Assembly: GCF_002310495.1 (NCBI RefSeq)
Contig: NZ_CP023344.1
Coordinates: 4,109,501-4,173,500 of the forward strand
Length of the DNA stretch: 64,000 bases
Direction: 5' to 3'
Source of the DNA: Nibricoccus aquaticus
GTDB taxonomy: Bacteria; Verrucomicrobiota; Verrucomicrobiia; Opitutales; Opitutaceae
Within the stretch, counting starts at the first letter, position 1, and every line of letters starts with the position of its first letter. Positions 46,946 through 59,153 of this stretch are shown here, piece by piece. The notes under the pieces are model-generated. The model ran no database searches. It was not told where the DNA came from and saw only the letters and a program-made list of their open reading frames with translations. The position numbers were made by a program, and so were the translations under genes.

Positions 46946-47020
46946 GCGCCAAGACGCGAAGGTCGGAGCCATGATTGGGCGGAAACGATTGGGCTCACGC
47001 AAAGACGCGAAGGCGCAAAG
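46946..47020. repeat. Two GACGCGAAGG-type phrases
   Basis: Bases 46946-46962 and 46997-47020 carry degenerate CGCGAAGR units at 8 to 9-nt spacing in the same direction. They lie between the DUF1800 gene and the next minus-strand gene end. Confidence 0.55.
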
Positions 47021-47063
47021 AAGAGCCGGCGGAAGCGGCGGAAAGAACGATGCGGAGTGGCGG

Positions 47064-49538: not shown

Positions 49539-49680
49539 GTCGGGGTTTGTCTCAGTGGAATGCGCGAAGGGGCGGAAGGTTCAACGCGGGCGAAGGTTTT
49601 TTCGCGGACGCTGTGAAGAGCGGAATCGCAAGGGCGCGAAGGGGCGAAGGACGGAAGCGACGAGGGGAGCGCGGAAAAGA

Positions 49681-55188: not shown

Positions 55189-55875
55189 ATGCCCGATTCC
55201 CGCTCAGTACGTCGTCAGCGCATCAAACTCATTGTGATCGCGGTGATGATCGTTGTCGGGTTTGGGCTCTTCGCAAAGTTCGGAGGGCACTATTGGAAGG
55301 AAGCGATCACCGGTTTGCCCGTGCCTGTTCTGCTGCTCTGCCTCGTGGTACTTCCGCTTACGGGTTTTCCTGTTTCACTGATGCTGGTGGCCGTGGGTGC
55401 GCGGTTCGGTTTCTGGCAGGGATTGGCGGCAGCCGCGGCGGCGATTCCGATTCATCTGGCGTTGAGTTATCCGCTGTCGGGGTTGTTTCGGCGGCCGATA
55501 ACGGCAATGGTGACTAAGGCGGGCTGGAGTCTGCCAAAACTGGATCGCGAGACCGCGTGGCCGTTCACGACGTGGCTGGCATTTGTGCCGGGCGTTTCTT
55601 ACACGCTGAAAAATTATACGCCTCCGCTGGCGGGCGTTCCATTCCGAATCTACTTCCTCGCGTTCTATCCGGTGCACCTTTGCACCGCGGTGCTGGGGTT
55701 GCTGATTGGCGGAGCGACGATGCACTTTTCGTGGCTCCTCGCTGTGGGAATCGTCACCTACGGGATCGCGATCGGGATTCTGACGAAGGTGCTGGCGAAT
55801 CGTTTGCGGGCGAAGGGAGCGTGGGTGTCGGACTCGAGCGCGGACGGCATGCAGGCGAAGTTCGCGAGCACGTAA
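55189..55875 (+). CDS. VTT-domain (TVP38/TMEM64-like) membrane protein
   Basis: The 228-residue inner-membrane protein has five or six hydrophobic segments. The VTT core is visible as FPVSLMLVAVGARFGFWQGL, followed by FTTWLAFVPGVSYTLKNYTP, with the conserved glycine and proline residues. VTT proteins are thought to move lipids between leaflets, and related DedA proteins move undecaprenyl phosphate. A specific substrate is not clear. It is a single gene. Confidence 0.82.
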   Translation: MPDSRSVRRQRIKLIVIAVMIVVGFGLFAKFGGHYWKEAITGLPVPVLLLCLVVLPLTGFPVSLMLVAVGARFGFWQGLAAAAAAIPIHLALSYPLSGLFRRPITAMVTKAGWSLPKLDRETAWPFTTWLAFVPGVSYTLKNYTPPLAGVPFRIYFLAFYPVHLCTAVLGLLIGGATMHFSWLLAVGIVTYGIAIGILTKVLANRLRAKGAWVSDSSADGMQAKFAST

Positions 55876-55892: not shown

Positions 55893-56097
55893 TTGAATCG
55901 CGAAGACGCTAAGGTGCGAAGATAGACGCGAAGCGAACGAGGGCTTTGGGGAAATTCGAGCTGAAGACATGCAGAGATCGGTTATCGCTGAAGCGCGAAA
56001 GAGCGGAAACGCGGAGGGGATCGCCTGTCTGGGGTCCCGGTGTCTCTGTCCAAGAGGGACGAACTGATCTTAGCGGCTTTGCATCTTTGCGATTCAA
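55893..56097. repeat. 205-bp element with 31-bp inverted ends
   Basis: The left end (55893-55923) and the reverse complement of the right end (56067-56097) agree at 25 of 31 positions; both begin with TTGAATCGC and end with AAGAT. Each end consists of three units at about 9-nt spacing. The centre holds further CGCGAAAGAGCGGA-like sequence and no gene. It resembles a small non-autonomous mobile or palindromic element. Confidence 0.65.
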
Positions 56098-56125: not shown

Positions 56126-56617
56126 TTATTTGGCGCGGATGGCGGCTTGGATTTTGGCGACGTCGATTTTGTCCATTTCCATCATCGCTTCGAAGGCGCG
56201 TTTGGCGGTGTCGCCGCCTTTGGCCATGGCGTCGGTGAGGACGCGCGGGGTGATCTGCCAGTTGATGCCCCACTTGTCTTTGCACCAGCCGCAGACGCTC
56301 TTTTTGCCGCCGTTCTTGATCAGGGCGTTCCAGTATTTGTCCGTCTCCTTCTGGTTGTCCGTGGCGACCTGGAAGGAAAACGCCTCGCTGTGTTTGAACT
56401 GGGGACCGCCGTTGAGGCCGATGCAGGGGATGCCGAGGACGGTGAATTCGACGGTGAGAATCTGGCCCTTCTTGCCTCCGCCCGGAAAGTTGGACGGGGC
56501 CTTGTGGACGGCGGTCACTTTGCTGTTGGGAAAGGTCTTCGCGTAGAACTTCGCGGCCTTGAGCGCGTCTTTGTCGTACCAGATGCAGACGATGTTTTTT
56601 GGAGTCCGTTTTTTCAT
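56126..56617 (-). CDS. VOC-superfamily protein (PhnB-like)
   Basis: The 163-residue protein fits the PhnB-like branch of the vicinal oxygen chelate superfamily, once annotated as 3-demethylubiquinone methyltransferase. It shows NIVCIWYDKDALKAAKFYAK, ILTVEFTVLGIPCIGLNGGP and SVCGWCKDKWGINWQITPRV. The fold is a paired beta-alpha-beta-beta-beta module; the metal ligands and reaction are not clear. It is the last ordinary G+C-rich gene before the A+T-richer island. Confidence 0.9.
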   Translation of the reverse strand: MKKRTPKNIVCIWYDKDALKAAKFYAKTFPNSKVTAVHKAPSNFPGGGKKGQILTVEFTVLGIPCIGLNGGPQFKHSEAFSFQVATDNQKETDKYWNALIKNGGKKSVCGWCKDKWGINWQITPRVLTDAMAKGGDTAKRAFEAMMEMDKIDVAKIQAAIRAK

Positions 56618-56734: not shown

Positions 56735-57181
56735 CTAGCTGCTGGATAATTCTAAATACGCCGGAGACGGCCGCTTTAACCAGCGGTCCGCTTTGAGTAT
56801 CGTTTTACCAAGGCTAGCTCCTTTAAGTGCGCACTCCCAAACGACCAAAGTTTTCCAGCCGGTAGATTTAAGCGCCATATACGCTCTTGAATCTCGCTCT
56901 TTGTTCGCTCGGAACTTGTCAGCCCAAAATGCAGCCTGCGATTTTGGCTTTGTTGCGAATCTGCAGCCAGAGTGGTCGTGCCAGAAGCAACCGTGCACAA
57001 AAATTACGACACGTCGTTTGGCAAATACTAGGTCAGGTGAACCCGGTAGGCTCCGCTGATTTATTCGGTAGCGATAGCCTAGTTTGTGCAGCGCCCGACG
57101 TAATAACATTTCAGGCTTTGTATCCTTCCGCCTGACTGATGCCATTAACCGCGACCTAGCTTTTGTACTCAGCCGATCCAT
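56735..57181 (-). CDS. vsr: Very short patch repair endonuclease
   Basis: The 148-residue nuclease nicks DNA at T:G mismatches that arise when 5-methylcytosine deaminates. Family marks are complete: RRKDTKPEMLLRRALHKLGY, LPGSPDLVFAKRR with the catalytic Asp, FVHGCFWHDHSGCR with the His and zinc ligands, and AFWADKFRANKERD. It is the last gene of a minus-strand group with a C5-cytosine methyltransferase, which explains its presence. It is separated from the ATPase-TIR gene by 91 bp. The codons are much less G+C-biased than in flanking genes. Confidence 0.95.
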   Translation of the reverse strand: MDRLSTKARSRLMASVRRKDTKPEMLLRRALHKLGYRYRINQRSLPGSPDLVFAKRRVVIFVHGCFWHDHSGCRFATKPKSQAAFWADKFRANKERDSRAYMALKSTGWKTLVVWECALKGASLGKTILKADRWLKRPSPAYLELSSS

Positions 57182-57272: not shown

Positions 57273-59153
57273 TCAGTCCTTCCGGATGGAAACGAGTGTT
57301 CCGAGGTGAGCTTTGTTTTCGGCGCGTTTTTTCTTCTTGTAGCCGAGCGTATCGCAAACCGCTTCGACCTTCTGGCAGAAAATATCTGCGTTCAGCGGCG
57401 TCATCCACAGTTCGTCCGGCTTTCCATCTCTGTTGGTGGATTGCCACTGGGTTTCGTCATCCAAGGGATGCTCGGGCCTGAACGGGCGGATATTGAAAAT
57501 CTTATGATCTATCTGCGTGATCCAAGCGGCGCCCACCTCTGTGATCGCTCCCCAAGAAACCTTAGTGTTCTCACTGGTAATGAAGAGAGCGAAAATCTTT
57601 TGATCCGAGTAACTCTCGATGAAGAAGTCGCGCAGGTATTCATAGACATGGCGCCCTTCCGGAATGCGACAGACCTCATCGTCGCAGTTAGTGTATAGGA
57701 TGTCCTCGGAAGACACGTTGTTGAACACTAGCATCGCATGCACGATGTCCGCGAACGATTTGTCCGGTAACGTCTGACTGATCAAAATCCTCTTCTTCTG
57801 GGAATCTACGAGCCGCTTCAGTCCAAGGTTGGGAGAGTTCTGATTGATCGAATCCAAGACGATTTTCTCAAGTGACTCCAACGGCATCTTTACCCCGAGC
57901 TTGGCGAGATTTTTTGCGGCCGCCTTGCTCGCAGTCCCACGAAAATCGTCGAAGGCGACCCTGAGGTTTTCTTCGTCCTGCTTCTGTTTCTCTTCCTTTT
58001 TTAGCTTTTTATCAGTGTTTCTGAGGTCTGTGAAAGTATCCCGGCGCCTGAGGATGTCTGCCAAGAGATCACGCCTCACGTACTCAAGGAGCGCGACGTA
58101 ACGGGGATCGTCGGATTTATAACCCTGTCTGTTGCTCAATGCCATGTCCGGCAATTCCGTGAGCTCGAACAGATCGACGTGAAGCTGCCCGACCACATAG
58201 ACCTCGTTCAGTTTGTTTTGGCCGACGACGGGAAGAATGTTGAATTCGCCCATCTTTCCATTCGCGAACAGAGAGATGAAGTTGTCAGGGAAATCCGTCA
58301 TCTCGGCCTTCCGGCCCTTCGTGCTCTGGTAGGTGCCGATCCATCCATTGATTTCGAGGGAATATTCATGCTCGGCTCCTTTATTGTCCGTCAACGACAG
58401 CGGAATCGCTTTCGTCGGATAGGTGCCGACCAATTCCTTCCGCTTTTTCGGAAAAGTGTTCGGAACCAGATCGCCCAGCGAGGCATAAGCCCTGCCGAGG
58501 GTGATGAGCGTGATGAGCTCAGTCATGATGTTCCGGTCGAAATCTTTTATCACCTCCGACTCCTTGCCTCTGATGATGTGGATTTTGAAATCCTTACTTA
58601 CCAAGGGAAATATTTTCAGGAGATTGCGCTTCACGGCGGTAAGCGAATTGTGCAACCGATATTGCGGAGCCTTCATCACGATGGCCGTTCCGTGTTTCGT
58701 TATGTGTTCGAACTCAATTTTGTCCTCGGGGATTGCGCGAAGCTTGCGGTCTTTCTCAATTCTCCGAGATAGGACGAATCCCGACTTGTCACCACCTGCG
58801 ATGGTCATGACATCGACATTCTCCGATACAGAAAGGGCGGCCAGCTTGCCTACTCCCTTGCGCCCCATCTTTTTTCGTTTGTGCGATTTGGTAGTGGAGT
58901 CTGTCTCCGTTGTTCGTGATTCGGCGGCGACGTCCAAATACCGTCTGACATCGCCTTTCGCGTAGGACATTCCGTGGCCGTCGTCTTCCACGCGGATGTC
59001 GTCTTTGTTCGAGATGATGTAAACATTCTTCGCGTCGGCGTCGTAAGCGTTAGCGATAAGCTCGGCCAATACGTAGTAGATGTTTGTGTATAGGTTCGGT
59101 CCCAATAGCTCCAGTATCCGTGGGTCGATGCTGATTTCGTATTCCTTACTCAT
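57273..59153 (-). CDS. GHKL (MORC/Hsp90-like) ATPase with C-terminal TIR domain
   Basis: The 626-residue protein has an N-terminal GHKL ATPase: the N-box ELIANAYDADA (31-41), G1 VEDDGHGM (55-62) and G2 GRKGVGKLA (97-105). A second domain of the S5-like type spans about 205-345 (FPDNFISLFANGK, NRQGY). A charged, coiled-coil-like stretch is at 375-400. Residues 454-610 read as a bacterial TIR domain: KRILISQT as strand A, EDILYTN, RIPEGRHVYEYLRDFF, IFALFITSEN and SWGAITEVGAAW (533-544) with the putative catalytic Glu539. It lies between the methyltransferase and vsr genes on the same strand. I infer a defence role: ATPase as sensor, TIR as NAD+-consuming effector. Confidence 0.85.
   Translation of the reverse strand: MSKEYEISIDPRILELLGPNLYTNIYYVLAELIANAYDADAKNVYIISNKDDIRVEDDGHGMSYAKGDVRRYLDVAAESRTTETDSTTKSHKRKKMGRKGVGKLAALSVSENVDVMTIAGGDKSGFVLSRRIEKDRKLRAIPEDKIEFEHITKHGTAIVMKAPQYRLHNSLTAVKRNLLKIFPLVSKDFKIHIIRGKESEVIKDFDRNIMTELITLITLGRAYASLGDLVPNTFPKKRKELVGTYPTKAIPLSLTDNKGAEHEYSLEINGWIGTYQSTKGRKAEMTDFPDNFISLFANGKMGEFNILPVVGQNKLNEVYVVGQLHVDLFELTELPDMALSNRQGYKSDDPRYVALLEYVRRDLLADILRRRDTFTDLRNTDKKLKKEEKQKQDEENLRVAFDDFRGTASKAAAKNLAKLGVKMPLESLEKIVLDSINQNSPNLGLKRLVDSQKKRILISQTLPDKSFADIVHAMLVFNNVSSEDILYTNCDDEVCRIPEGRHVYEYLRDFFIESYSDQKIFALFITSENTKVSWGAITEVGAAWITQIDHKIFNIRPFRPEHPLDDETQWQSTNRDGKPDELWMTPLNADIFCQKVEAVCDTLGYKKKKRAENKAHLGTLVSIRKD

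Follow-up and report, generated by a model that had tools for sequence, protein, structure and literature searches.

A 205-bp pair of inverted three-unit phrases in Nibricoccus aquaticus, a probable gene-less relative of phrase-bounded GxxExxY elements

The window analysed here is a stretch of 64,000 nucleotides from Nibricoccus aquaticus (contig NZ_CP023344.1, positions 4,109,501 to 4,173,500), and coordinates refer to it unless the genome is named. At 55893–56097, a 205-bp element sits between the 3′ ends of two convergent genes: the stop codon of a gene for a VTT-domain-like membrane protein (55189–55875, + strand; 28.5 bits, under the Pfam cut-off of 33.9) lies 17 bp before it, and that of a 3-dmu-9_3-mt (PhnB-like) gene (56126–56617, − strand) lies 28 bp after it. 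The element is bounded by two inverted 31-nt arms that match at 25 of 31 positions (81% complementary) across 143 nt. This architecture, already reported in the first-pass annotation, is confirmed by shuffling of the surrounding 1.2-kb region, in which the best 31-nt inverted match reached 19–21 positions (12 shuffles) and never more than 21. In the single-stranded DNA fold (−40.4 kcal/mol, z −3.2), the two arms are paired with each other from end to end. Likewise, each end is indeed a three-unit phrase, in which TTGAAT is followed by three CGCnAAG-like 7-mers at a spacing of 8 bp. The left arm (55893–55923, + strand; 40 bits with the family model described below) reads CGCGAAG-a-CGCTAAG-g-TGCGAAG, with its units at 55899–55905, 55907–55913 and 55915–55921, and after a 5-bp spacer there is a fourth CGCGAAG unit (55927–55933, + strand), an extension common to many family members. 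The right arm (56067–56097) is inverted and reads TTGAATCGCAAAGATGCAAAGCCGCTAAG on the − strand (32 bits). The 143-bp interior (55924–56066, + strand) has no gene and differs between copies. It contains a lone phrase belonging to a second family, TTATCGCTGAAGCGCGAAAGAGCGGAAACGCGGAG (55982–56018, + strand), recognized by its separate genome matches at query positions 103–138; in a sampled 511 kb, six of six copies of this second family are on the G-rich strand. An Rfam search of the element region gave no match at any family's gathering score, and a neighbouring gene used as a query against the genome contigs found one distant locus only. Beyond the convergent gene, a vsr-like mismatch endonuclease gene (56735–57181) stands beside a HATPase-domain gene (57273–59153) in a stretch of lower G+C (0.51–0.53) that is possibly a separately acquired island.

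The arms belong to a family that is dispersed through the genome (4.73 Mb, a single contig). A sequence-only model, R1, built from 26 arms, has at least 150 matches, which fall into 122 clusters: 24 inverted pairs, 4 same-strand doublets and 94 solitary copies. The first-pass proposal that phrase repeats can come in matched inverted pairs is thus borne out 24 times, and all 24 pairs face inward, with TTGAAT outermost and the arms 16–207 bp apart. Further full-length copies of the 205-bp unit, which that annotation had suggested looking for, are absent from the genome; what the copies share is the arms (consensus TTGAATCGCnAAGnCGCnAAGnCGCnAAG) and not the interior. Where gene context was read, from sequence stretches around the copies and with our own, approximate gene caller, 0 of 90 clusters overlap a called gene, and many copies lie near gene ends. 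Weaker single CGCnAAG phrases also occur in the window at 46998–47021 and 49623–49653, both on the + (G-rich) strand. Elsewhere (L003/L073, genome positions 2827097–2827321), a phrase pair of the second family is nested inside a CGCnAAG-family pair, with a RAYT-like gene about 1 kb away and what looks like an RNase P RNA gene adjacent.

Among copies picked by the model, CGC and AAG hardly vary within the phrase, and the fourth base of each unit is free. That free base is not distributed at random, as adjacent units avoid sharing it: in R1 copies from the sampled stretches L105–L178 and the window, units 1 and 2 have the same fourth base in 18 cases against 34.5 expected and units 2 and 3 in 3 against 24.4, while units 1 and 3 share it in 33 against 24.1. 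The avoidance between adjacent units is outside all 5000 shuffles, which gives the impression that the phrases have been purged of exact tandem repeats. If the two arms of a pair were copied from each other, they should be especially alike, and this idea was rejected: partner arms agree at 23.2 of 29 positions and arms of different copies at 23.9 of 29 (21 inverted pairs; p for greater likeness 0.996 by permutation, which places the value in about the lowest 0.4% of the distribution), as if perfect palindromes were avoided in pairs. The solitary copies, for their part, are not simply decayed pairs, because a clear second arm (at least 8 bits) within 230 bp is found for only 1 of the 53 stronger singles.

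It is informative to examine the orientation of the solitary copies in light of replication. In all 94, TTGAATCGC.. reads along the G-rich strand of the replichore concerned (binomial p ~1e-28), given the GC-skew switches seen near 2.09 and 4.45 Mb in sampled stretches. The rule holds equally for the 54 strong (at least 27 bits) and the 40 weak (12–27 bits) matches, and some of the weak ones may be members of sister phrase families. Simple pattern counts place phrases of the CACAGAG, CAGATG, CAGGATT and CGCGGAAGCGC types mostly on the same strand, and in two genomes of another genus the rule is less clean. Here “leading” strand is read from GC skew only, since SSU rRNA, sought as an additional marker, had no match in the sequence examined. 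The one-strand rule for single phrases suggests that some step involves single-stranded DNA at the replication fork, and it provides a way into a copying mechanism coupled to replication.

The same kind of inverted phrases that bound the 205-bp element are found around genes of the GxxExxY family (TIGR04256/PF13366). Almost every GxxExxY gene in the phylum is tightly enclosed by such a pair: among relatives and the wider phylum, 59 of 74 loci have a flank inverted-repeat score of at least 14 (median 18.75), a level that 0.1% of shuffles attain, as do 3 of the 252 control genes taken from phrase-rich parts of this genome (loci against control genes, Fisher p 1e-46). Most of these elements are about 430–470 bp long with one gene between the ends, and the gene often begins and ends within the phrases. 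The phrase sequence varies from element to element, while the left and right phrases of one element agree. The inverted phrases around the two GxxExxY genes of this genome are of other types (AACCGCAGAGGCGCGGAGG.. and CCACTGATGGACACTGAT..), and the CGCnAAG phrase surrounds neither gene; CGCGAAG-type phrases do bracket GxxExxY genes in the relatives G006, G021 and G008 (L312, L311 and L098). Elements of this kind recur at the same junctions in several genera, after leuB, before hemL and before gatB (L074/L091/L103; L075/L093/L217; L079/L080/L081/L092/L094/L096/L210/L213), with phrase types that partly differ. Such recurrence implies that GxxExxY elements can be very old residents, and the junctions concerned are either sites of very old residence or insertion hot spots. 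A description of these elements was not found in the open-access literature, to which the search was confined, and an earlier one in subscription journals is possible.

We take TIGR04256/PF13366 (PDDEXK_3), or GxxExxY, to be a PD-(D/E)XK nuclease family that is annotated as of unknown function. Across 46 proteins, E29, D69, E79, K81, Q93 and Y97 are invariant, an E..D..ExK..Q..Y set. The AlphaFold model has a pLDDT of 94, and the solved structures closest to it in fold are Cas4 SSO0001 and lambda exonuclease; with a best E of 1.7e-3, this is a likeness at the level of the fold. PADLOC assigned the protein to no defence family, and PHROGs gave one borderline match, which is CRISPR-associated.

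Whether such elements move can be judged from junctions that are filled in one species and empty in another. For seven elements, the two flanks were joined and used as queries against 21 genomes of genus g50, which belongs to the same family as N. aquaticus. In five cases, one or more congeners align straight across the junction with no insert. At the L218 site, a sixth case, a remnant of the right phrase is all that the nearest congener has, and the right phrase alone is kept in three congeners. Species by species, the same junctions are empty or hold a GxxExxY element, a gene-less phrase pair or a deleted derivative. Beside truA, for example, a GxxExxY element is found in G166 and nothing is inserted in G049 or G245; in G246, GCTAAT units form a gene-less pair around a 10-bp loop, and a gene-less CACGGAT pair is common to five other species. 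At the L219 site, the gene is present in two species, two are empty and others carry gene-less pairs of three different types; in G244 there is a 177-bp derivative (L278) that consists of both phrases and the start of the gene. Gene-less pairs with the anatomy of the 205-bp element therefore occupy the same kind of place as gene-carrying ones, and the phrase type mostly differs between the two forms at one junction. These comparisons show that the elements come and go. The flanks are about 70–84% identical, so that the exact insertion junction and any target duplication are unreadable; no target-site duplication is visible at the listed element junctions, and the empty sites have diverged too far for the cut to be placed.

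Taken together, these observations lead us to favour, as the probable reading, that the 205-bp unit belongs, as a non-autonomous form without a gene, to a phrase-bounded GxxExxY class of mobile DNA. It has the matched inverted ends of that class, with three short units each and an outer AAC/GAAT, and it does not have a GxxExxY gene between them; with a gene-free interior of 143 bp, it can at most be a gene-less member. The first-pass view of it as a miniature mobile element is accordingly upheld in part: the family is dispersed, and in another genus a given junction may have a pair in one species and lack it in the next, but most copies are single phrases and not pairs. As to mechanism, the GxxExxY nuclease might recognise the CGCnAAG-like units, or else the hairpin or single strand of the inverted pair, and the near-invariant CGC and AAG with a free fourth base would fit recognition by a protein. 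It would then cut or nick at the phrase, and new copies may arise as the cut or looped DNA is repaired or replicated. Gene-less pairs and single phrases would either depend in trans on gene-carrying elements or be relics.

It is also worth considering that the phrases could be host sites under selection, such as terminators, mRNA hairpins or nucleoid or regulator sites, with GxxExxY genes merely among them. Copies are intergenic and often near gene ends, their conserved bases around a variable one look like a protein's recognition site, and similar repeats in Geobacter metallireducens have been read, in the passages that treat them, as sites of IHF/HU-type global regulators (PMC2700814). However, single copies are unable to form a terminator hairpin, one orientation with respect to replication is unexpected for regulator sites beside genes of all orientations, and the presence, absence and sequence type of phrase pairs vary by species at one junction, and we consider this explanation unlikely. 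Equally doubtful, in our judgement, is the idea that GxxExxY genes are homing-type nucleases invading the loops of phrase pairs that already existed as an older repeat of independent origin. It would agree with the gene starting and ending inside phrases and with junctions whose pairs are gene-less or gene-carrying depending on the species; yet the phrase type usually differs between the two at one junction, so that simple invasion of the same pair is not seen, and the 177-bp derivative shows that gene-less forms also arise by deletion. That the arms are REP sequences moved as REPINs by this genome's RAYT (TnpA-REP, Y1 HUH) transposase is very improbable in spite of the inverted pairs and singles, the intergenic location, the high copy number, the strand asymmetry and three Y1_Tnp genes, because each of those RAYT-like genes (L071, L072 and L073; genome positions 425854, 2306048 and 2828312) has its own family of GTAG-containing palindromic REPs, none of them the CGCnAAG phrase, and the arms are direct 8-bp repeats and not short GTAG-tagged hairpins.

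Comparison with known systems leads to similar distinctions. The nearest description in the literature is that of the “class 1” multicopy sites of Geobacter metallireducens, where 24 opposite-strand pairs at variable distance are made of tandem octanucleotide repeats (consensus GTTGCTYN, four units; Aklujkar et al. 2009, PMC2700814). In the parts of that paper concerned with these sites, the anatomy of the pairs is the same as that of the phrase pairs here, although the sequence is another one, there are four units and the sites are guessed to bind a global regulator; those parts draw no link to GxxExxY, to mobility or to the replication strand (PMC2700814). REPINs (PLoS Genet. 2011, PMC3116915) are likewise short intergenic repeats of high copy number that occur as inverted pairs and singles, but the phrase ends here have no GTAG hairpin and the Y1 transposases are tied to other REPs. 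As no RAYT is flanked by the phrase and the arms contain no GTAG tag or hairpin, a REPIN identity of the 205-bp unit was rejected. Prokaryotic MITEs such as the Correia element (PMC10969869) are also short, mostly intergenic and multicopy, with inverted ends and internal-deletion derivatives. The 205-bp unit has in common with MITEs its terminal inverted repeats, shortness, lack of coding sequence and multicopy nature, with interiors that vary between copies. In contrast to MITEs (PMC10969869), the gene that goes with these ends encodes a PD-(D/E)XK nuclease and no DDE-type parent was found. Among the GxxExxY elements and Y1 transposase genes of this genome, no parent transposon with the same ends was found, the two GxxExxY elements having other phrases.

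Because gene-carrying relatives of the 205-bp unit come and go between species, they look like a widespread and hardly described kind of small mobile DNA. A more far-reaching proposal, which we offer tentatively and judge somewhat less probable than not, is that GxxExxY elements, gene-less pairs and single phrases together are selfish DNA outside the known transposon classes and, jointly with this, that their sole enzyme is a PD-(D/E)XK protein of Cas4/lambda-exonuclease type, that their ends are tandem 7-mers varying by element and that their spread is tied to one strand of the replication fork. Short phrases with a period of 7–10 bp are scattered in many genomes and, to our knowledge, lack an explanation; if the proposal were true, GxxExxY elements would have left the “phrase” repeats of a great many bacterial genomes as their footprints. 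More immediately, the link between GxxExxY and phrases, with its empty and filled sites, provides a testable setting for both, the nuclease and its probable DNA substrate. The association extends to other phyla: in a sample of eight plasmid records, clear inverted phrases were found in four, from Bacteroides, Bernardetia, Sphingomonas and Gemmatirosa. On plasmid 1 of Gemmatirosa kalamazoonensis (L320, 993198–994753), a GxxExxY gene is flanked both left and right by a complete phrase pair that lacks a gene.
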